A stretch of DNA of 43,588 nucleotides from Nostocoides sp. Soil756 (GTDB taxonomy: Bacteria; Actinomycetota; Actinomycetes; Actinomycetales; Dermatophilaceae): assembly GCF_001428065.1 (NCBI RefSeq), contig NZ_LMSE01000002.1:21623-65210 (forward strand), written 5' to 3'. This document shows positions 15,272 through 25,266 of this stretch, piece after piece. The position numbers and the translations under genes were made by a program. The notes under the pieces are model-generated. The model had not been told where the DNA came from, searched no databases, and saw only the letters and a program-made list of their open reading frames with translations. How positions within the stretch are numbered: the stretch's first letter is position 1; each line of letters opens with the position of its first letter.

Positions 15272-15838
15272 TCAGGCGGGGTGCGGCCAGTGGATGCCGT
15301 CGGCCGTGACGACGCCGTCGACCGGCACGTCGTGCGGCTCCCGAGGCAGCGCCTCCCCGGGCTCGCGCTCGCCGGGGTGCAGCAGCACCAGCACCGGCAC
15401 CCCGGCCCGGCGCCTCGGCAGCGCCCGGTCGTAGCACCCGCCGCCCTGCCCGAGCCGGGTCCCGCGCCCGTCGACTGCCAGCCCGGGCGCCAGCACCAGG
15501 TCGGCCTCGCCCACGGCCTGCACCCCCAGCCCCCGCACCGTCCCGTCGTCCCGCGTCAGCTCGTGCCAGCCCAGATCGAGGTCGGGCAGCGTGTCGGGCA
15601 CCAGCACGCGGTACCCCTCGCCGAGCAGCCACGCGTTCAGCGCCTCGGTCGGGGGCTCGCCCGCCACCGACTCGTAGGAGAGCACCGTCATCCCCGGGGC
15701 GAGCCCCGTCCGCGCCACCACCGCGCTCACCTGCGCGACCAGGTCGCGGCCGTCGGCGGCGGTGTCGCGGACCGCCGTGATCTCACGCCGCCGCGCCCGC
15801 AGGCGACGCCGGACCTGGGACTTCTCAGAGGTGGCCAC
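15272..15838 (-). CDS. 5-formyltetrahydrofolate cyclo-ligase
   Basis: 188 aa cytosolic enzyme that converts 5-formyl-THF and ATP to 5,10-methenyl-THF, returning stored folate to one-carbon metabolism. The basic N-terminus KSQVRRRLRARRREI matches the family, as do VLSYESVAGEPPT and the nucleotide/substrate loop GQGGGCYDRAL (about 130-140). GTG 15838 lies 6 nt after a -10 TACGAT. It is divergent from the UGPase operon with a shared promoter; M. tuberculosis Rv0992c and galU have the same arrangement. The C-terminus ends HWPHPA, a normal end. Confidence 0.93.
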   Translation of the reverse strand: MATSEKSQVRRRLRARRREITAVRDTAADGRDLVAQVSAVVARTGLAPGMTVLSYESVAGEPPTEALNAWLLGEGYRVLVPDTLPDLDLGWHELTRDDGTVRGLGVQAVGEADLVLAPGLAVDGRGTRLGQGGGCYDRALPRRRAGVPVLVLLHPGEREPGEALPREPHDVPVDGVVTADGIHWPHPA

Positions 15839-15844
15839 GGGGAC

Positions 15845-15850
15845 ATCGTA
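15845..15850 (-). promoter_or_regulatory. -10 box of leaderless 5-FTHF cyclo-ligase gene
   Basis: On the minus strand TACGAT ends 6 nt before the GTG at 15838. Its TA shares bases 15849-15850 with the opposite-strand -10 box. Confidence 0.65.
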
Positions 15851-15854
15851 GGGT
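15849..15854 (+). promoter_or_regulatory. -10 box of the leaderless UGPase-moeA operon
   Basis: TAGGGT ends 7 nt before the ATG at 15862. It overlaps the divergent -10 box by two bases. Confidence 0.65.
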
Positions 15855-15861
15855 GGCCGTC

Positions 15862-17244
15862 ATGACGAGCGATGCCCTGCACGCTGCCACCGACACGATG
15901 CGCGAGGCCGGCGTCGACGAGCTCGCGATCCGCGTCTTCGCCGACTTCCACCGCCAGCTGTCCGAGCACGTGACCGGCACCATCCCCGAGGACACGATCA
16001 ACCCGCTCACCGACGTCCCCGCCCTGGCCGACGCGCACCCCGACGACGGGGCCGTCGCCGCCGCGCTCGCCCGCACGGTCGTGGTCAAGCTCAACGGCGG
16101 GCTGGGCACCGGCATGGGTGTCCAGGGCCCCAAGTCGGCGCTCGAGGTCCGCGACGGCCGCACCTTCCTCGACATCATCGCCGCCCAGGTCCTGGGCCTG
16201 CGCGAGCGCTACGGGGTGGACGTCCCGCTGCTCCTGATGAACTCCTTCCGTACCCGCGAGGCCTCGCTCGAGATCCTCGGGCGCCACCCCGGCCTGGCCG
16301 TCGAGGGGCTGCCGCTGGACTTCCTCCAGAGCAAGGAGCCCAAGCTCCGCGCCGACGACCTCACGCCGGTGGAGTGGCCCGACGACCCCGAACTGGCCTG
16401 GTGCCCCCCCGGCCACGGCGACGTCTACGTGGCGCTGCGCACCACCGGCATCCTCGACACCCTGCGCGAGCGCGGTTACCGCCACGTGTTCCTGTCCAAC
16501 GCCGACAACCTCGGCGCCACCTGCGACGGGGCCATCCCGGCCTGGATGGCGGCCGAGGGCATCCCCTACGTGGCCGAGCTGTGCGAGCGCACCGTCAACG
16601 ACCGCAAGGGCGGGCACCTGGCCGTGCGCCGCTCCGACGGGCGCCTGGTGCTGCGCGACTCGGCGATGGTCGCGCCCGGCGAGGACCACTACTTCCAGGA
16701 CAACGAGCGCCACCCGTACTTCCACACCAACAACCTGTGGGTCGACCTCGAGGCGCTGGCCGCGCGGCTCGACGAGCGCGACGGCGTCCTGGGCCTGCCG
16801 ATCATCGTCAACCGCAAGACCGTCGACCCCACCCGCCCCGACTCCACGCCCGTCATCCAGATCGAGTCGGCGATGGGCACCGCGGTGGAGGTCTTCGACG
16901 GGGCCCGCGCGATCGTGGTCGACCGCAGCCGGTTCCGCCCGGTGAAGACCACCAACGAGCTGCTCCTGCTGCGCAGCGACCTGTACCGCGTCACCGACGC
17001 CGGGATGGTCGAGGCCGTCGCCGACCGCCCCGAGCCGCTGGTCGACCTCGGGGGCGCCTACAAGCTCGTGGGCGACTTCGACGCGCGCTTCCCGCGCGGT
17101 GTCCCGTCGCTGCGCGAGTGCACCAGCCTGCGCGTCGAGGGCGACACCGTCTTCGGCGCCGGCGTCGCCTGCGTCGGCGACGTGCGTGTCACCGAGGGCA
17201 CCCGCGCTGTCCCCGACGGCGCCCGGATCGAAGGGACCCTCTGA
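15862..17244 (+). CDS. UTP--glucose-1-phosphate uridylyltransferase, eukaryotic (UDPGP) type
   Basis: 460 aa. It makes UDP-glucose from UTP and glucose-1-phosphate for polysaccharide and glycolipid synthesis. The nucleotide loop LNGGLGTGMG (about 77-86), GPKSALEV, then PPGHGDVY (sugar pocket) and LFLSNADNLG-type box (VFLSNADNLGAT, about 211-222) are those of the UDPGP family found in eukaryotes and many actinobacteria, not bacterial GalU. A C-terminal left-handed beta-helix (about 385-460) is expected from GDVRVTEGTRAVPDGARIEG. ATG 15862 is favoured by the -10 spacing over GTG 15853. Its TGA overlaps the moeA ATG by one base. Confidence 0.93.
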   Translation: MTSDALHAATDTMREAGVDELAIRVFADFHRQLSEHVTGTIPEDTINPLTDVPALADAHPDDGAVAAALARTVVVKLNGGLGTGMGVQGPKSALEVRDGRTFLDIIAAQVLGLRERYGVDVPLLLMNSFRTREASLEILGRHPGLAVEGLPLDFLQSKEPKLRADDLTPVEWPDDPELAWCPPGHGDVYVALRTTGILDTLRERGYRHVFLSNADNLGATCDGAIPAWMAAEGIPYVAELCERTVNDRKGGHLAVRRSDGRLVLRDSAMVAPGEDHYFQDNERHPYFHTNNLWVDLEALAARLDERDGVLGLPIIVNRKTVDPTRPDSTPVIQIESAMGTAVEVFDGARAIVVDRSRFRPVKTTNELLLLRSDLYRVTDAGMVEAVADRPEPLVDLGGAYKLVGDFDARFPRGVPSLRECTSLRVEGDTVFGAGVACVGDVRVTEGTRAVPDGARIEGTL

Positions 17245-18464
17245 TGCGCACCGTGGCCGAGCACCGGGAGGCCGTCCTGGCCCTGGTCCGCCCCCTGCCC
17301 GCCGACACCGTCGAGGTGGGGGCCGCCCTCGGGCGGGTCCTGGCCGAGGACGTCGTGGCTCGGGTCGACCTGCCCTCCTTCGACAACTCCGCGATGGACG
17401 GCTACGCCGTGCGATCCGCCGACCTCGCGGGCGCGGGGGACGGCCGTCCCGTCACGCTGCCGGTGGACGGCGACGTCGCGGCCGGCGACACCACCTGCCA
17501 TGTCCTGGTCCCCGGTCACGCGATGCGCATCATGACCGGCGCCCCGCTGCCCGAGGGCTGCGACGCCGTCGTCCCCGTCGAGGCCACCGACGGCGGTGCC
17601 GAGCAGGTGGCGGTGCGTCTCGAGCCCGAGGTCGGCCGGCACGTCCGCCGGCGCGGCGAGGACGTCCGCACCGGCGACACCGTCCTGCGTGCCGGTACCC
17701 ACATGGGCCCGGGCCACGTCGCGCTCGCCGCCGCCGCGAACGTGCCGCAGGTCGCGGTGCACCGTCGCCCGAGGGTCACCGTCGTGTCCACCGGCGACGA
17801 GCTGGTGCCGGTGGGCGCTTCGCTCGAGCACGGGCAGATCGTCGACTCCAACCGCCTGATGCTGCGCGCGCTCGTCGAGGCGGCGGGGGCCGAGGTGGCC
17901 GCCGACGTGCACCTGCGTGACGAGGGCGACGCCGTGCGGGCCTTCTTCGCGGCGCCCGACGGCGCGCCCGACCTGGTCATCACGAGCGGTGGGGTCTCGA
18001 TGGGCGTGTACGACACCGTCAAGGAGGTCCTCACCGAGGACGGCGGCGTCGAGTTCGTCAAGGTCGCGATGCGCCCCGGGATGCCGCAGGGCTGCGGGGT
18101 CGTAGGCCCCGGGAGGGTGCCGATCGTCACGCTGCCTGGCAACCCGGTCAGCTCCTTCGCCTCGTTCCACGTCTTCGTCCTGCCGGCCCTGCGGGCGATG
18201 GCCGGCATCGACCCCGCCGACGACGGCGCCTTCGAGGCGGTGGCGGGTGAGTCGTGGTCGACCATCGCGGGGCGCACCGAGCTGACCCGCGTGGTCGTGG
18301 ACGGCGGTGTGGTGCGCCCGTCCGGCGGCCAGGGGTCGCACGTGCTGGGTGCGCTGGCCGAGGCGAGCGCCCTCGCGGTGGTCCCGGCCGACGTCGAGCG
18401 GGTCGAGCAGGGGGCTACCGTCCTCTGCCTGCCCCTGCTGGGGCATCATCGGAGACGTGGCTGA
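17244..18464 (+). CDS. moeA: Molybdopterin molybdenumtransferase MoeA; candidate gephyrin-like Glp
   Basis: 406 aa. MoeA inserts molybdate into adenylylated molybdopterin. Domain order is normal: [11 protein letters not shown] (about 47-57), [44 protein letters not shown] (about 247-258), [11 protein letters not shown] (about 299-309) and a C-terminal domain IV. The order UGPase-MoeA-RimJ-membrane protein equals M. tuberculosis galU-moeA1-rimJ-Rv0996. The corynebacterial member of this locus (Glp) binds FtsZ and the membrane receptor GlpR, so a divisome role is a reasoned inference, while the adjacent moaC and moaB argue that the cofactor role is kept. It overlaps moaC by 8 nt. Confidence 0.93.
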
Positions 18465-18954
18465 CACCGGAGCGTCCCCCAGCGGCCTGACCCACGTCCG
18501 CGCCGACGGGACGGCCCACATGGTCGACGTCTCGGGCAAGGCCGTCACCGCCCGCCGGGCCGAGGCGCGCGGCCGGGTCCTGCTCTCGCCGGCCGCCGTC
18601 GCCGCGCTGCGCGACGGCACGGTGCCCAAGGGGGACGCCCTCGCCGTGGCCCGCATCGCCGGCATCCAGGCAGCCAAGCGCACCCCCGAGCTGGTACCGC
18701 TGGCGCATCCGGTGGCCGTGCACGCCGTCGAGGTCGACCTCACCGTCGCCGACGACGGGGTCGACCTGCGGGCCGAGGTCCGCACGGCCGACCGCACCGG
18801 CATCGAGATGGAGGCGCTCACCGCCGTGAGCGTCGGGGCGCTGGCCCTCATCGACATGGTCAAGGCCGTCGACAAGCACGCGCGCATCACCGACGTGCGG
18901 GTCACCGCCAAGTCCGGCGGCCGCTCCGGCGACTGGGTGGAGGAGTCCCGGTGA
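18457..18954 (+). CDS. moaC: Cyclic pyranopterin monophosphate synthase MoaC
   Basis: 165 aa. With MoaA it converts GTP to cyclic pyranopterin monophosphate, the first step of molybdenum cofactor synthesis; MoaC does the second half of the rearrangement. [17 protein letters not shown] at the start, [17 protein letters not shown] with LVPLAHP (about 50-80), and [23 protein letters not shown] carry the catalytic Lys and Asp residues. GTG 18457 lies within the moeA tail with GGAG only 2 nt upstream; a CATCAT 7 nt upstream could also make a leaderless transcript. It overlaps the next gene by GTGA. No moaA, moaD or moaE is present in the window. Confidence 0.95.
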
Positions 18955-19472
18955 GCGGCGACGACGCCGGGATGCAGGGGGCCGGCGGCCCGCTGGCCGG
19001 GCGGCGCGCCGTCGTGGTCACCTGCTCGACCCGCGCGTCCCAGGGCGTCTACCCGGACCGCGGCGGCGCCCTCATCGTCGAGGCCCTGCGGGGCTGGGGG
19101 GCCCAGGTGGGTGAGCCCGTGGTCGTCCCCGACGGCCCGGCCGTGGTCGAGGCGCTGCGCGCCGCCCTGGCCGACGGCCCCGACCTCGTCCTGACCACCG
19201 GAGGCACCGGGCTGAGCCCCACCGACGGCACCCCGGAGGCGACCCGCCCGCTGCTCGACCGTGAGGTGCCCGGCCTCGCCGAGGCCGTACGGGCCGCCGG
19301 TGTCGCCAAGGGCGTGCCCACCGCGATGCTCTCGCGCGGGCTGGCCGGCCTGGCCGGGCGAACCCTCGTCGTGAACCTGCCCGGCTCCAGTGGCGGGGTC
19401 AAGGACGCGCTCGCGGTGCTGGCCGAGGTCCTCCCGCACGCACTGGACCAGGTCCGCGGCGGTGACCACTGA
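18951..19472 (+). CDS. MoaB/MogA-family molybdopterin adenylyltransferase
   Basis: 173 aa. It adenylates molybdopterin so that MoeA can insert the metal. The MoCF fold shows [16 protein letters not shown] (about 24-39), [20 protein letters not shown] (about 82-101, the MPT-binding glycine loop) and a late NLPGSSGGV (about 142-150). MoaB and MogA cannot be told apart by reading alone. The GTG at 18951 overlaps the moaC stop by 4 nt, and its own TGA overlaps the next ATG by one base, so the operon is tightly coupled. Confidence 0.92.
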
Positions 19473-20221
19473 TGTGGCGCCGGCTGCTCGGTGAGAGTGC
19501 GCGCCACGCGTCGCAGCCGGCGCCGCCCCCGGAGTGGGTCTGGCCGGTGCGCCTGCACGGCCGGACGCCCACCGGGGTCGACCTGACCCTGCGACCGCTG
19601 ACCCACGCCGACGGCTCCGTCTTCCAGGCGGTGCGCCGGGCCAACGCCCAGTGGCTCGAGCCCTGGGACGCCACCGCTCCCGAGCCGGACGCGCCCGCGC
19701 GCACCTACGAGGAGCTGGTCACGCAGTACGACCTCGACGGGGCCGCGGGGCGAGCGCTGCCGCTGGCCGTCGAAGCGGAGGGCCGGGTGGTGGGGCAGGT
19801 CAACGTCGGCACCGTGGTCTATGGCTCGTTCCGCTCGTGCTACATCGGCTACTGGGTGAGCCGGGCGTTGGCCGGCCAGCTCGTGGTGCCCACCGGCGTG
19901 GCCCTGGTCGCCGACCACCTGTTCTGGCGGGTCGGTCTGCACCGGATCGAGATCAACATCCGACCCGAGAACACCGCCAGCCTGGCGGTGGTGCGCAAGC
20001 TGGGGTTCCGGTTCGAAGGGCGCCGCCCGCACTACCTGCACATCGACGGTGCCTGGCGCGAGCACCTGTCCTTCGCGCTCACCACCGAGGACCTCGCCGG
20101 CGAGACCGTGCTCGCCCGGCTGACCCGTCTGACGCTCCGATCACAGTCGTCACACGAGTCACTTGCGCGACACACCGAGCCGGGTGCACGCCCGGGGGAG
20201 GCTCCGCGCCTACCGTCGTAG
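19472..20221 (+). CDS. GNAT-family N-acetyltransferase, RimJ/RimL type
   Basis: 249 aa. It probably acetylates a protein alpha-amino group using acetyl-CoA. GVDLTLRPLTHADGSVF starts the fold (about 30-50); YIGYWVSRALAGQLVVPTGVALV (beta-strand 4 and the CoA loop, about 125-147) and IEINIRPENTASLAVVRKLGFRFEGRRPHYL (about 165-195) are typical of RimJ. A Trp-rich N-terminal extension precedes it. It lies where M. tuberculosis rimJ (Rv0995) lies, between moeA1 and Rv0996. Whether ribosomal S5 is the true substrate is not shown by the sequence. The last codons contain the promoter of the next gene. Confidence 0.9.
   Translation: MWRRLLGESARHASQPAPPPEWVWPVRLHGRTPTGVDLTLRPLTHADGSVFQAVRRANAQWLEPWDATAPEPDAPARTYEELVTQYDLDGAAGRALPLAVEAEGRVVGQVNVGTVVYGSFRSCYIGYWVSRALAGQLVVPTGVALVADHLFWRVGLHRIEINIRPENTASLAVVRKLGFRFEGRRPHYLHIDGAWREHLSFALTTEDLAGETVLARLTRLTLRSQSSHESLARHTEPGARPGEAPRLPS
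20211..20216 (+). promoter_or_regulatory. -10 box of the leaderless GlpR/SepX-like gene
   Basis: TACCGT lies inside the 3' end of the GNAT gene and ends 7 nt before the GTG at 20224. The membrane protein can therefore be transcribed independently of the operon. Confidence 0.55.
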
Positions 20222-20223
20222 CC

Positions 20224-21249
20224 GTGCAGTCGCCGTCGAGCCTGATCTTCCTCGTCCTCATCGGGGTCTGGGCTGCCTACTTCGTGCAGTACTGGATCCG
20301 GCGCCGTGACCACCTGGCCACCGCGCGTTCGGTCGAGCAGTTCAGCGCCGCCATGCGCGTCCTCGAGCGCCGTGCCCCGATCCCGCGCACCGACCTCTCC
20401 GACCCCACCCCGCGCTCGTGGGCGGTGCATCCGGCCCGCGCGGTGCGGCCGCAGGTCGTCGTCAAGCGCGCCGTGTCCGCCGACGCCGGCGTCATGATGG
20501 CCTCCGTGCCCGCGCCTCGCGCCGGGCGCACCTCCGTCCCGGCTGTGCGCATCCCGGCCGCGGCCGGGGGTGCACACCCGTCGCGACGGGTCCGGGCCCT
20601 GACCTTCCTGGCCGTCCTCGTCATGACGCTCGTCGTCACGGTCCTGGCGGTCGCCGGGCTGTTCGCCGGATGGGCCCCGCTCGTCGCCCTGGTCGCCATC
20701 GCCTCCTCCTTCGCCTGGCTGCGCGCCGGTATCCGGGCCGAGCAGGCCGCGCGGGCCGCCCGCCGCCGCCGCGCCCGAGCCGAGACCCTCGAGCGCACCG
20801 TCGCTCCGGCGGCGCCCGCTCGCCCGGCCCGGCAGCGCCGCGCGCCGGCCCACGCGCCCGCGGTCGTCGCCTCCGCCGGCCCGGCCGACCGTGCCGTCTC
20901 GGGCAGCACCGAGGTCGACGAGGCATCTGCCCCGGCCGCGGCCTCCGTGGCGCCCCCGGCCTCCGAGGCGCCCGTGGCCCCCGCCGCACCCGAGCCGGTC
21001 GTCGAGCCGGCACCGGCTCTGGAGCCCGAGCCCGTCATGGAGATCGAGTACGTCCACCTCGTCGACGAGGACGACATCCCGCTCACCTGGGACCCGGTGC
21101 CCGTCCCGCGGCCGACCTACACCATGAAGGCCAAGGCCGAGCGGCCCCAGGTGGCTCCCGCCGCCGTGGCGCCCGAGGCGTCGCCGGTGGCGGCCGAGCT
21201 CCGCTCGCACGACGGAGCCCTCGACGAACGGCGCGTCGCCGGCGCCTGA
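20224..21249 (+). CDS. GlpR/SepX-like membrane protein, putative divisome component
   Basis: 341 aa. A first hydrophobic helix (about 4-21, SLIFLVLIGVWAAYFVQYW) is followed at once by RRRDH; a central cytoplasmic segment contains FSAAMRVLERR. Two close helices (about 125-165) and the basic stretch RAEQAARAARRRRARAE come next, then a long Ala/Pro-rich linker. The C-terminal motif IPLTWDPVPVPRPTYTMKAKA (named by region, about 285-305) is the recognisable tail. This layout and position match M. tuberculosis Rv0996, corynebacterial GlpR and streptomycete SepX, which link the gephyrin-like Glp or FtsZ to the membrane. Assignment rests on synteny and topology, not on alignment. Confidence 0.75.
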   Translation: MQSPSSLIFLVLIGVWAAYFVQYWIRRRDHLATARSVEQFSAAMRVLERRAPIPRTDLSDPTPRSWAVHPARAVRPQVVVKRAVSADAGVMMASVPAPRAGRTSVPAVRIPAAAGGAHPSRRVRALTFLAVLVMTLVVTVLAVAGLFAGWAPLVALVAIASSFAWLRAGIRAEQAARAARRRRARAETLERTVAPAAPARPARQRRAPAHAPAVVASAGPADRAVSGSTEVDEASAPAAASVAPPASEAPVAPAAPEPVVEPAPALEPEPVMEIEYVHLVDEDDIPLTWDPVPVPRPTYTMKAKAERPQVAPAAVAPEASPVAAELRSHDGALDERRVAGA

Positions 21250-21268
21250 GCCGGGCCGACGGCCGCGG

Positions 21269-21296
21269 GTCGTCGGAGGTGCGTCGTCGGAGGTGG
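21269..21296. repeat. 14-bp tandem duplication between convergent genes
   Basis: GTCGTCGGAGGTG plus one base occurs at 21269-21282 and again at 21283-21296, identical but for the last base. It fills most of the 48-bp gap between the GlpR-like gene and the AI-2E transporter gene. Confidence 0.7.
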
Positions 21297-21297
21297 G

Positions 21298-22572
21298 TCA
21301 GGCGGTGCCGTCGGGCGCGTCGCGCCCCACGCGCTCGTCGGGCACCTCCGGCGCAGCGTCCCTGCCGTCGCCGTGCGGCGTGGGGGCGTCCTCGGCCCCC
21401 GGGGTCTCGAGGTCCTCGTCCGTCGGGTCGTCCGGTGCATCGAGCAGGTGGTGGCCGACGGCGTTGAGCACCGCGACGGTGGGGACCGCGATGAGGCCGC
21501 CGATGACACCGGCCAGGATGATGCCGGCGGCGATGGCCAGGATGACGGCCAGGGGGTGCAGGCGCATCGCGCGGCCGATGAGGAACGGCTGGAGCAGGTG
21601 GCTCTCGAGCTGCTGCACCCCGATGACGACAGCCAGCATGATGAGCGCCTGCACCGGCCCGAGGGCGACCAGGGCCAGCAGCACCGCGACGCCACCGGAG
21701 ACGGCCGCGCCGACGATCGGGATGAAGGCGCCGAAGAACACCAGGAGCGCGATGCCCGAGGGGAACGGCACGCCCAGCACCAGGGCGCCCAGACCGATGC
21801 CGGTGGCGTCGACGGCCGCGACCAGGATCGTCGCGCGGGTGAACGCGGCCACCTGGCCCCAGGCGATCACCCCGGAGGAGTGCACCCGGGTGCGGGCGCC
21901 CCGCGGGAACAGGCGCACGATCCACCCCCAGATGGTGGGTCCGTCGTAGAGGAAGAAGAACAGCGAGAAGAGCGCCAGGAAGAAGCCGGTCAGCAGGTGA
22001 CCCACGCCGAGCCCGGCCGCGGTGAGCGAGTTCGTGAGGCCGCCCGAGCTCATCGACTCACGCACCTGGGCGATGTAGTCGGTGAGCTGGGTGTCCGTGA
22101 TCGCGAAGGTGTCCTGGACCCACTGCCGCACCTGGTCGATGCCGTCGGTGACCTTGGTCGAGATGTCGCCGAGCTGGCTGGTCAGCTGCGAGCCCACGAA
22201 CGAGATGAGCCCGATGACCACCGCGATGGTGCCGAGGACGGTGATGCTGGCCGCCGCGCCCTTGGGCATGACCCGGGCCAGCCGGTCGAAGATGGGGTGC
22301 AGCAGGGCTGACAGCAGCAGAGCGACGAGGATCGGGATGACGACCTCGCTGAGCAGGCTCGTCAGGAACAGCACGGCGACCAGGGCCGCCCCGATCACCA
22401 GCCCACGCCAGGCCCACTCACTGGCCGTGCGCACCCCCCGGGGGACCGACCACTCGGCCGGCAGCCGCGGGTCGTCCATCCACGGGCCGCCCGGGTCGAC
22501 CAGGACCCGGCGCGGGGGCCGAGCGCCCGGTGCGGGCTCGGGTCGGGCGCCGCGGGAGAAGGGAAGTCGCAT
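21298..22572 (-). CDS. AI-2E family transporter
   Basis: 424 aa inner-membrane protein of the TqsA/YdiK/PerM group. About seven to eight helices are arranged as in the family: two or three near the N-terminus (about 50-110), a long soluble region with GSQLTSQLGDISTKV, then the C-terminal bundle with LIVFFGAFIPIVGAAVSG-type motif (here LLVFFGAFIPIVGA, about 255-268) and QQLESHLLQPFLIGRAMRLHPLAV (about 312-335). Some members export autoinducer-2, others act as ion antiporters; the role here is open. The tail is acidic and disordered. ATG 22572 follows a -10 TAGAGT by 6 nt. Confidence 0.92.
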   Translation of the reverse strand: MRLPFSRGARPEPAPGARPPRRVLVDPGGPWMDDPRLPAEWSVPRGVRTASEWAWRGLVIGAALVAVLFLTSLLSEVVIPILVALLLSALLHPIFDRLARVMPKGAAASITVLGTIAVVIGLISFVGSQLTSQLGDISTKVTDGIDQVRQWVQDTFAITDTQLTDYIAQVRESMSSGGLTNSLTAAGLGVGHLLTGFFLALFSLFFFLYDGPTIWGWIVRLFPRGARTRVHSSGVIAWGQVAAFTRATILVAAVDATGIGLGALVLGVPFPSGIALLVFFGAFIPIVGAAVSGGVAVLLALVALGPVQALIMLAVVIGVQQLESHLLQPFLIGRAMRLHPLAVILAIAAGIILAGVIGGLIAVPTVAVLNAVGHHLLDAPDDPTDEDLETPGAEDAPTPHGDGRDAAPEVPDERVGRDAPDGTA

Positions 22573-22988: not shown

Positions 22989-25112
22989 TCAGACGACCAG
23001 GGCGGCCGCGGTGGCCTCGACCAGGGTCGGTGACGGCATCCGGAACTCGGGGCGCCCGAAGTGGTAGCCCTGGCCCAGGACGATGCCGACGTCGCGCAGG
23101 ACGGCCCACTGCTCGCGGGTCTCGACGCCCTCGGCGCAGACGAGGGCGCCCATGCTGCGGGCCCACTCGGCCAGGGCCCGTAGCGCGTCGGCCCGGCTCC
23201 GGTCGCCGTCCAGGCCCGCCAGCAGGCTGCGGTCGAGCTTGACCACCTCCGGGCGCAGCCGCAGGATGCGCTCGACGTTGGAGTACCCCTTCCCCCAGTC
23301 GTCGAGGGCGATGGTCGCACCGCGACCCCGGAGGGCGGCGACGGTGGCGATGGCGGCGTCCCAGTCGTCGGTGTCGGTCTGCTCGGTGATCTCGATGACG
23401 ACGTCGTGCAGGTCGCCGGGCAGCACCGCCTCGACCTCCGCGGCGCCGAGCGAGCCGATGCTGAGGTTCACCGATACGTAGCCCTGGTCGGGGCGCTCGG
23501 CGAGGGCGGCGCGGATGGCGGCGGCCTCGAGCGCCGGGCCCTGGCCGGCCCGGTGGGCCTGGGCGAAGACGGTCTCGGGGTCTCCGTCCGGGAAGCGGCT
23601 GAGGGCCTCGTGGCCGACGACCGTGCCGTCGCGCAGGTCGACGATCGGCTGGAAGGCGATGCGCAGGGCCGGCAGCCCACGCTCGGGGCAGCCGGCGTTC
23701 GCGACGCGCACGCGGGCGCGGCCGGCGTGCTTGGCCTCGTAGAGCGCACGGTCCGCCATCTCCACGAGGCGTGACGGCTCGGCGCCAGGCTCCCAGGCCG
23801 CGACGCCGGCCGAGAACCGCTGCCCGTACGGGGTGAGCCCTTGCATGGTGTCGAGGAGCTCGCAGGCCTGTTCGGTGGTCGAGCCGGGCAGCAGCACCCC
23901 GAACTCCTCGCCCCCGTACCGCGCCAGCACCTCGTGGGGCGCGAGGAGGCTGCTCCACGCCGCCACCGCCTCGCGCAGCAGGAGGTCGCCCGCCTGGTGC
24001 CCCCGCTCGTCGTTGAAGCGCTTGAAGTGGTCGAGGTCGATCAGCGCCACCGTCAGCGGGGCGTCGGTGTCCTCGGCCTGCTGTACGGCCCGGCCGAGCT
24101 CGTGGTCCCAGGTCCGGCGGTTGGGAGCGCCGGTGAGCCCGTCGCTGCGGGCCAGCGCGGCCAGCTGCACGGCCTGCACCTCGACGGTGCGGACCAGCAC
24201 GCCCATCCGCGCGAGCACCAGCATCGAGAGCGCCACCGACCCGATGGAGACCAGCAGCCACGGGAGCCGATGGCCCAGCAGCCCGTCGGCGAGCAGCGTC
24301 GCGCCGGGCAGCACGAGCGCGCAGCCCAGGGCCACCAGCCGCCGGTTCGCCGACGTGCCCCCGTCGAGGCTCAGCCCGTCCTCGCCGAGCGCGGGGGCTG
24401 AGCGCGTGCAGGCCGCCGCGGCCCCCGCGAGGTAGCCGAGCAGCCACAGCTGGTCGAGCCAGGCCTGTGCTGTGGCCGTGGGGTCGGCGATCGCCATCAC
24501 GTTCCAGGTCAGGTCGGCCACGAGCACCGAGAGCAGGGCGACGACGAGCAGCCGGAACGACGGAGACCGGAGGCTGGCGGTGGCCCACAACCGCACCAGG
24601 ACGGCCAGCAGGAGCACGTCGGCGATCGGGTAGGCCGACGTCACGATCCGCCCGAGCACCGGGACGGTCGAGTCGCTCGCGACCGGGCTGACGACGAAGG
24701 TCCCCACGACGACACCGAAGGTGAGCGCGACGATCGACGCGTCGAGCATCAGGGTGGGGTCGGAGCGCATCCGTCGGCCGCGCGCGAGATGGAGGAGCCC
24801 GGCGGCCAGCACGGCGTACGACGCGAGGTAGGGGACGTCGCTCGGGGCCGGGTAGGCGGCCAGCCGGAGGCCGTACTGCTCGACGGAGTAGACGACGTCG
24901 CCCAGGGCCCACCCCGCGAAACCTGCGGTGACGAGCAGCCAGCCGCGACGCGCGGGGCCGGGGATGCGCCAGGCGCCGTAGAGGCCCAGAGCCACGCACA
25001 GCACACCGAAGACGTCGCCCACCAGCGACCGGGTCGCTCCCGCCGGCACGAGCGGCAGAAGGCACAGGGCCCCGAGGAGCGCGATGAACACCGCGCGGGA
25101 CGTCGACCGCAT
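22989..25112 (-). CDS. Membrane GGDEF-EAL protein (cyclic di-GMP turnover)
   Basis: 707 aa. About eight to nine hydrophobic helices (about 5-325) form a sensory membrane region. A GGDEF domain follows with SDGLTGAPNRRTWD, DLDHFKRFND and the active loop RYGGEEF (about 397-403). The product-inhibition site RxxD is replaced (APHE). An EAL domain follows: HEAL (about 501-504), VNLSIGSL, EITEQTD, LDDWGKGYS (about 600-608), VKLDRS, CAEGVE and QGYHFGRPE; the metal and catalytic residues appear kept, so both synthesis and hydrolysis are possible. ATG 25112 has GGCGGAG 5-6 nt upstream and is preferred over an upstream start at 25205. It lies alone. Confidence 0.93.
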   Translation of the reverse strand: MRSTSRAVFIALLGALCLLPLVPAGATRSLVGDVFGVLCVALGLYGAWRIPGPARRGWLLVTAGFAGWALGDVVYSVEQYGLRLAAYPAPSDVPYLASYAVLAAGLLHLARGRRMRSDPTLMLDASIVALTFGVVVGTFVVSPVASDSTVPVLGRIVTSAYPIADVLLLAVLVRLWATASLRSPSFRLLVVALLSVLVADLTWNVMAIADPTATAQAWLDQLWLLGYLAGAAAACTRSAPALGEDGLSLDGGTSANRRLVALGCALVLPGATLLADGLLGHRLPWLLVSIGSVALSMLVLARMGVLVRTVEVQAVQLAALARSDGLTGAPNRRTWDHELGRAVQQAEDTDAPLTVALIDLDHFKRFNDERGHQAGDLLLREAVAAWSSLLAPHEVLARYGGEEFGVLLPGSTTEQACELLDTMQGLTPYGQRFSAGVAAWEPGAEPSRLVEMADRALYEAKHAGRARVRVANAGCPERGLPALRIAFQPIVDLRDGTVVGHEALSRFPDGDPETVFAQAHRAGQGPALEAAAIRAALAERPDQGYVSVNLSIGSLGAAEVEAVLPGDLHDVVIEITEQTDTDDWDAAIATVAALRGRGATIALDDWGKGYSNVERILRLRPEVVKLDRSLLAGLDGDRSRADALRALAEWARSMGALVCAEGVETREQWAVLRDVGIVLGQGYHFGRPEFRMPSPTLVEATAAALVV

Positions 25113-25266
25113 GAGGACTCCGCCCTGGGAAGACCCCTGCGTGGATCGTGGACCTGACCATGCTCGCACCGCTGCGCCCGTGAACAGGGGGAACGGCGGG
25201 TGCACTGGCCGTTCGACCGATGGATGGGGAGCGGTCGCGCGCCCGGTCAGGGGACGGGGACGGCGA

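Follow-up and report, generated by a model that had tools for sequence, protein, structure and literature searches.

Gene order and identity of the genes

The window, by which we mean the whole 43,588-nucleotide stretch analysed (positions 21,623 to 65,210 of contig NZ_LMSE01000002.1), comes from Nostocoides sp. Soil756, whose 3.47 Mb genome is rated 100% complete. It carries a compact run of genes for a UTP-glucose-1-phosphate uridylyltransferase (UGPase), MoeA, MoaC, MogA/MoaB, a GNAT acetyltransferase and a membrane protein of the SepX/GlpR type (Table 1). This order, given in a preliminary description of the sequence, is borne out by the open reading frames (ORFs), the DNA and the family matches, and the locus, likened there to M. 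tuberculosis galU-moeA1-rimJ-Rv0996, matches the glp–glpR locus of Corynebacterium glutamicum, in which a MoeA homologue, Glp, is a divisome protein. The present analysis concerns the MoeA that occupies the glp position in the window. Genes from the UGPase to the GNAT gene overlap by 1 nt (UDPGP/moeA), 8 nt (moeA/moaC), 4 nt (moaC/mogA) and 1 nt (mogA/GNAT), the last three as described earlier, and a 2-nt gap separates the GNAT gene from the membrane-protein gene.

Table 1. Features of the division locus, in coordinates of the window
Feature	Position	Strand	Basis
5-formyltetrahydrofolate cyclo-ligase (MTHFS)	15272..15838	-	TIGR02727 E 4.6e-26, PF01812; divergent neighbour marking the conserved locus
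UTP-glucose-1-phosphate uridylyltransferase, UDPGP type	15862..17244	+	PF01704 E 7.6e-115
moeA	17244..18464	+	Three MoeA domains; glp position of the locus; only MoeA found in the genome
Hairpin-encoding part of moeA, counterpart of the C. glutamicum Glp loop that binds FtsZ	18291..18326	+	Alignment with 8bve
moaC, GTG start	18457..18954	+	PF01967 E 6.2e-49; PRK09364 over cut-off
mogA/moaB	18951..19472	+	PF00994 E 2.3e-26; TIGR00177 over cut-off
GNAT acetyltransferase (RimJ-like)	19472..20221	+	PF13302 E 9.7e-16; PRK10809 below cut-off
GACAC, WhiA-type box inside the GNAT gene	20169..20173	+	Last base 51 nt before the glpR start codon
-10-like hexamer TACCGT	20211..20216	+	7 nt before the glpR GTG start
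glpR/sepX homologue, GTG start	20224..21249	+	SepX_GlpR_2 E 2.2e-26; alignment A1

MoeA and the cofactor pathway

No second MoeA was found in the genome. A PF00994 search matched the window moeA and mogA alone, and the Glp model retrieved, besides the window moeA, one 65-position match of 19 bits. A second MoeA grouping with Glp, which by the preliminary description would have counted against its own reading, is therefore rejected. The genes moaA, moaC, moaE and mogA were all found, together with four PF00384 matches.

In the alignment, the window MoeA keeps 12 of 13 active-site residues of Escherichia coli MoeA, the single difference being K279 to R, against 9 of 13 in C. glutamicum Glp. Among these 13, D59, R137, E188 and K279 derive from mutated positions in Protein Data Bank (PDB) sequences and T100, D142, D228, R350 and S371 from PDB titles, and D259, K275, P298 and P301 are positions that we take to belong to the active site. 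The degenerate molybdenum active site that is a trait of Glp is thus absent, and a catalytically dead Glp is rejected as the identity of the protein. At the FtsZ-contact positions 338, 343, 360, 361, 369 and 370, C. glutamicum Glp has VLLMYL and the window protein FGVD-V; in this alignment with 8bve the M361/Y369 signature of the FtsZ-binding loop is not present and the loop is short. The two hinges between domains I and III, proline-rich in Glp, read LVRPLPADT and AVHRRPRV in the window and contain APEP and YPRPR in C. glutamicum, prolines being common there in non-division MoeAs too.

Family and structural comparisons were also made. The NCBIfam Glp model (NF045515) gave 443.9 bits, under its curated cut-off of 475, and MoeA_actino gave 438.9 bits, with a cut-off of 560. 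A phmmer search scored 228 bits to E. coli MoeA and 174 bits to Glp 8bve, and the closest named MoeAs were those of Phycicoccus jejuensis (80%) and P. sonneratiae (78%). An AlphaFold monomer model (mean pLDDT 92.8) gave TM-scores, among the 50 of 907 Foldseek matches listed, of 0.64-0.70 to four Glp chains, 0.75-0.86 to E. coli MoeA, whose chains differ among themselves, and 0.84-0.89 to Cnx1E. On the open conformation, a trait of Glp, the monomer model gives better TM-scores to the enzyme structures but its lowest Foldseek E-value to a Glp chain. The earlier assignment of the window MoeA to the divisome protein Glp is not supported, given the missing M361/Y369 loop, the sub-cut-off score, the retained active site and a predicted structure that superposes better on the enzymes. 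Because it is the sole MoeA found, stands with the cofactor genes, keeps 12 of 13 residues and lacks the loop signature, the simplest and, to us, best reading of the sequence is that it would be a working molybdotransferase rather than a repurposed Glp.

Distribution of the gene order

In a class sample of 69 genomes, 54 had a match over the NCBI Glp cut-off, and moaC was the next match downstream, on the same strand and within about 250 bp, in 46 of these 54 (including G069 and G115, where the moaC match is partial). The eight exceptions are five genomes of family f19, which look mycobacteria-like (a label that is inferred), G085, and G067 and G118, which lack any moaC match. Among the loci fetched, the order MTHFS' - (UGPase) - moeA - moaC - mogA - GNAT - GlpR recurs from the window's family through G072 and G100, which look like large Streptomyces-like genomes (label likewise inferred), and is found in named Nocardioides, Frankia, Nonomuraea and Thermobifida; many relatives also have the MTHFS gene adjoining the locus. 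Such recurrence across the class puts the gene order beyond chance, and the arrangement is old and widespread rather than unusual. An insertion of moaC and mogA into a glp-glpR pair, as first suggested, is rejected on the 46 of 54 count and probably has the direction reversed: the two genes are probably missing from the corynebacterial version. Given its wide spread, and given that the other state is nested in the tree (see below), moeA-moaC-mogA beside GNAT and glpR is probably the ancestral actinomycete order.

A second set, the order sample, comprised 59 genomes. In 21 of them moeA-moaC lies in the division locus, and the Glp model gives no other match above 200 bits in any of the 21. Thirteen have a moaC-less copy in the division locus; 12 of these carry a second MoeA above 200 bits elsewhere, and the thirteenth, G032, gave no moaC or moaA match. 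Eight further genomes gave no match to MoeA, moaC or moaA, and the other 17 have neither GNAT nor GlpR near the MoeA loci fetched. For those 25 genomes, all 18 GlpR loci examined hold a GNAT-GlpR pair without moeA, 16 of them with MTHFS; the remaining seven genomes gave no GlpR match (G022, G034, G037, G048 and G051) or a very weak one (G006 and G036). A GlpR homologue stands beside the GNAT gene at loci L278, L279, L280, L281, L288, L289 and L290; the seven genomes concerned gave no match to MoeA, moaC or moaA. GlpR matches occurred in 53 of the 59 genomes and in 7 of the 8 MoeA-less ones (best E 5e-17 to 2.4e-6), and this persistence makes GlpR seem independent of a MoeA partner in this order.

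Returning to the class sample, 31 of the 54 genomes have no second Glp-model match spanning at least 300 of 403 positions, a count from a model that could miss more distant MoeAs, and moaC comes next in 29 of the 31. The name Glp may therefore cover many sole, ordinary MoeA enzymes, of which the window is a typical case, and it becomes testable in laboratory actinomycetes whether a sole copy can do both jobs. The product name attached to NF045515, 'divisome protein Glp', may be too broad, although the NCBI exception model MoeA_actino may override it.

Active site and moaC linkage

We compared 93 division-locus MoeAs over seven residues (D59, T100, R137, D142, E188, D228 and R350), after dropping the short MoeA fragments L158 and L096. 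All 74 moaC-linked copies were unchanged at the seven positions; of the 19 moaC-less copies, 18 had at least one changed. The genome G158 had been left out of the 74 rows, its moaC being unseen in the ORF search; tblastn then found one in its stretch (82.6% identity), which would make the count 75 of 75. T100 is more telling than R350P: threonine is present in 74/74 moaC-linked division-locus rows, 39/39 moaC-linked non-division rows and 20/20 other non-division rows, and in 4/20 division-locus rows sorted as moaC-less. Four moaC-linked relatives, G065, G082, G062 and G108 (loci L164, L166, L167 and L168, respectively), combine a tyrosine in the loop with seven unchanged residues, so that intermediates look possible; from their sequences, these four would be candidate bifunctional forms.

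A quick tree of 160 rows, from which 13 divergent non-division MoeAs had been removed and which included 47 moaC-linked division-locus rows of the window's family, placed the window and all division-locus MoeAs given in one clade (SH-aLRT 98), within which G105 is the sole further row. Every moaC-less row nested among moaC-linked rows. In a more careful tree of 80 rows, a hand-picked subset, the moaC-less rows formed a group of 13 (100/100), a group of C. glutamicum Glp with G060 and G081 (100/100), a group of G067, G085 and G118 (99/88) and, standing alone, G066, which the 160-row tree places with the C. glutamicum group (96). Constraining all 20 moaC-less rows, among them C. glutamicum Glp, to a single clade carries a cost of 49.9 log units (p-AU 0.045). 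Two origins of the moaC-less, active-site-changed state are likely, and three are probable. For orthology, synteny carries no less weight than the trees.

The membrane protein and the control of its gene

The product of the last gene matches SepX_GlpR_2 with 93 bits over residues 4-310 (curated cut-off 150) and lies under every NCBIfam SepX/GlpR cut-off. Alignment A1 shows 18-47% identity to 24 homologues, including 30% to G072, which looks like Streptomyces, and 26% to G060, which looks like a mycobacterium. Hydrophobic segments lie at about residues 5-21, 128-144 and 145-161, counted from the GTG at 20224, that is, one N-terminal and two central, along with two disordered-looking regions; the segments come from a hydropathy scan. 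This accords with the three transmembrane segments and two cytoplasmic disordered regions of GlpR/SepX. The protein contains PRPTY, and PxPTY occurs in most of 25 rows, G060 and G066 excepted. As expected of GlpR/SepX, its gene adjoins the moeA locus and the GNAT gene. By family model and alignment, the protein is a SepX/GlpR homologue, as the preliminary description had it.

A sigma-70 consensus scan of positions 15700-21500 gave no site. A TANNNT hexamer ends 6-7 nt before the glpR start in five of six loci with a strict start pattern, the window included, and 1 nt before it in the sixth; the TACCGT 7 nt before the GTG suggests that the glpR transcript may be leaderless. Forward-strand GACAC lies no more than 120 nt before the GlpR match in 73/149 loci (L162, L163, L219 and L253 are examples), often as CGACACACCG. 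The corresponding figures are 13/150 for GNAT, 22/159 for MoaC, 5/155 for MogA, 16/147 for MTHFS, 35/221 for MoeA and 4/37 for UDPGP, and the enrichment at GlpR over each other gene has a Fisher p of at most 1.2e-5, not corrected for kinship. Counted by lineage group, the motif is found at GlpR in 34/44, GNAT in 11/44, MoaC in 15/43, MogA in 5/40, MTHFS in 14/43, MoeA in 16/49 and UDPGP in 2/5. Both G072 and G100 have it upstream of glpR, as do 15/47 loci in the window's family, where predicted starts are uncertain.

GACAC is given as the WhiA motif in PMC3781837, and PMC8748795 describes Streptomyces venezuelae sepX as a WhiA/WhiB target. WhiA is present in the window genome. The pattern is consistent with a conserved, putative WhiA site upstream of glpR/sepX in actinomycetes; we found no paper reporting a WhiA box of sepX outside Streptomyces, although figures and supplements may show one. 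From the TANNNT and GACAC motifs, a separate promoter for glpR, near the 3' end of the GNAT gene, is likely, in agreement with the earlier suggestion. This suggests that glpR can be switched apart from the cofactor operon and weakens the idea that cofactor synthesis and division are coupled through one mRNA.

Other features

The first gene of the run had been likened to M. tuberculosis galU. A uridylyltransferase is indeed encoded there, but it is of the UDPGP type. Within the set examined, a PF01704-type UGPase occupies this place in 21 stretches, the window included; another gene seems to fill the slot elsewhere, presumably bacterial GalU. Three genomes from the window's family (G176, G136 and G153) have UGPase and MoeA in one stop-free open frame (L114 2831-5482, L115 3699-6362 and L117 7060-9999, minus strand). 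The eight junction codons printed include no ATG, GTG or TTG, and a UGPase-MoeA fusion is likely there, judging by these frames. Similarly long open frames occur in several other genomes. The best NCBIfam model for the GNAT protein is PRK10809, ribosomal protein S5-alanine acetyltransferase (E 2.6e-20, 73 bits, cut-off 190), a type for which we take RimJ to be the name. Beyond the locus, a long ORF lies at 22989-25205 (minus strand), whose translation appears to contain what we take to be GGDEF- and EAL-like motifs.

Interpretation and alternatives

We read the window as a common actinomycete division locus, probably in its ancestral state, with a sole, intact MoeA enzyme beside a separately controlled glpR, and give this reading a probability of roughly 77%. 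The locus MTHFS' - UGPase - moeA - moaC - mogA - GNAT - glpR/sepX would thus have been held in a probably ancestral arrangement, its overlapping moeA-moaC-mogA genes acting as a molybdenum-cofactor operon in which moeA would encode the only, catalytically intact molybdotransferase of the cell, and the gene of the SepX/GlpR-type protein would be driven, in part at least, by a promoter of its own, probably under WhiA. The window MoeA would never have acquired the FtsZ-binding loop of corynebacterial Glp and presumably does not bind FtsZ. Elsewhere, with a second MoeA present or cofactor synthesis lost, moaC and mogA would have left the locus, and the remaining moeA copy would have lost active-site residues and become Glp. 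The window seems to show the state before this change, which is seen in some relatives. The arrangement noted in the preliminary description is thereby confirmed as an observation, and its interpretation is partly supported.

Several results weigh against this reading. The Glp model narrowly tops the NCBIfam list for the window MoeA, and the lowest Foldseek E-value of the monomer model belongs to 8bvf_B, a chain of the Glp-FtsZ complex. The FtsZ C-terminal tail of the window genome, DLDVPDFLK, agrees with the described Glp contacts, so there is a target for binding. That glpR is a conserved neighbour may point to a functional link of some kind, and the promoter evidence consists of motifs only. 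Linkage and active site do not match perfectly: G085 is moaC-less at the locus and keeps all seven residues, and R350P, scored as a change, is also present in 23/39 moaC-linked non-division MoeAs and need not by itself inactivate. The tree shows three changes of moaC linkage and four of the active site; with so few linkage changes, a sign test on independent pairs (median p 0.25) is powerless and 0.05 is unreachable. Rejection of a single origin for the moaC-less Glps is only marginal at the p-AU given above. Placement in the division-locus clade is a further weak point. The window MoeA is 47% identical to the non-Glp MoeA of G060 and 38% to its Glp, an early tree of 76 rows sets it outside the Glp clade, and the 80-row tree leaves the division-locus node at 49/11 with ten non-division rows inside; enforcing the clade gives a slightly more likely 80-row tree, and the clade is not rejected (p-AU 0.53).

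Some of these points would also suit a sole MoeA that is bifunctional like gephyrin, making cofactor and docking on GlpR, and perhaps on FtsZ, through a surface other than the loop, which is the proposal of the preliminary description in its strongest version. It would sit in the same conserved locus as glp-glpR with GlpR encoded alongside, and it draws on the conserved FtsZ tail, the best Foldseek E-value and the moaC-linked relatives with a loop tyrosine and unchanged active-site residues. We nevertheless think it unlikely, since deletion of the loop in C. glutamicum abolishes binding of both FtsZ and GlpR, according to PMC10522489, and the loop in the window is short and unlike that of Glp; moreover, GlpR persists in seven of the eight order-sample genomes in which no MoeA was found, so that a MoeA partner is not needed everywhere. 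A second alternative, in which the window MoeA has already been turned into an inactive Glp and another, unseen MoeA makes the cofactor, would fit the position in the locus and the 443.9 over 438.9 bits of the Glp model, but is scarcely credible with no other MoeA found, the active-site residues kept and the cofactor genes present. It is also very improbable that the membrane protein is unrelated to GlpR/SepX and merely occupies the same place. Its sub-cut-off scores and the lack of any phmmer match among solved structures at E up to 1 would allow this, as would the first loop or disordered region, which carries a net positive charge in 30 of the 31 relatives scored, all with at least two predicted segments (a list that leaves out the window), and is acidic in C. 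glutamicum GlpR (pI 4.05; PMC10522489). Against it stand the SepX_GlpR_2 match across residues 4-310, the 18-47% identity to 24 homologues, and the shared position, hydrophobic segments and PxPTY motif.

A wider reading, which we think less likely than not, can also be put forward. Bacterial gephyrin may not stem from one duplication; the ancestral actinomycete MoeA may have been a single catalytic protein encoded beside its future receptor, perhaps already moonlighting there. It would have been released from its catalytic duty on two or more occasions, probably three, in lineages that had another MoeA or had given up cofactor synthesis, and each time the division-locus copy would have become Glp. 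If so, the window, and more so G062, G065, G082 and G108, would be living states before or during release from catalysis. No paper that we found connects the departure of moaC from the locus with the repurposing of Glp, although figures and supplements may show it.

Comparison with known systems

In the published view, the majority of actinobacterial genomes carry two or more copies of moeA (PMC10522489) and Glp-bearing bacteria have a second MoeA (PMC11733289). Sole-copy, moaC-linked genes of the Glp family contrast with this view, and the second MoeA stated for Glp bearers was not found in the window genome. The preliminary description knew of no account of the arrangement in this lineage, which cannot be upheld, since the Glp paper (PMC10522489) and the SepX paper (PMC8748795) each report analysing this neighbourhood.

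The nearest described system is Glp-GlpR of C. glutamicum (Cgl0883/Cgl0885; PMC10522489), to which the window is related by homologous genes in the same neighbourhood, by a GlpR homologue with three hydrophobic segments and by an FtsZ tail that fits the described contacts. It differs in that its MoeA is the sole copy found, keeps 12 rather than 9 of the 13 residues and lacks the M361/Y369 loop, in that moaC-mogA belong to the operon, and in that the predicted structure superposes better on enzymes. The likeness to SepX of S. venezuelae (PMC8748795) lies in a membrane gene homologous by family model, and the Streptomyces-like G072 and G100 share the order moeA-moaC-mogA-GNAT-glpR with the window. 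With E. coli MoeA (1fc5/1g8l), the window protein shares 12 of 13 active-site residues and TM-scores of 0.75-0.86 to the chains listed; it differs in having R at K279, in its 39% identity and in being encoded in an actinomycete division locus.

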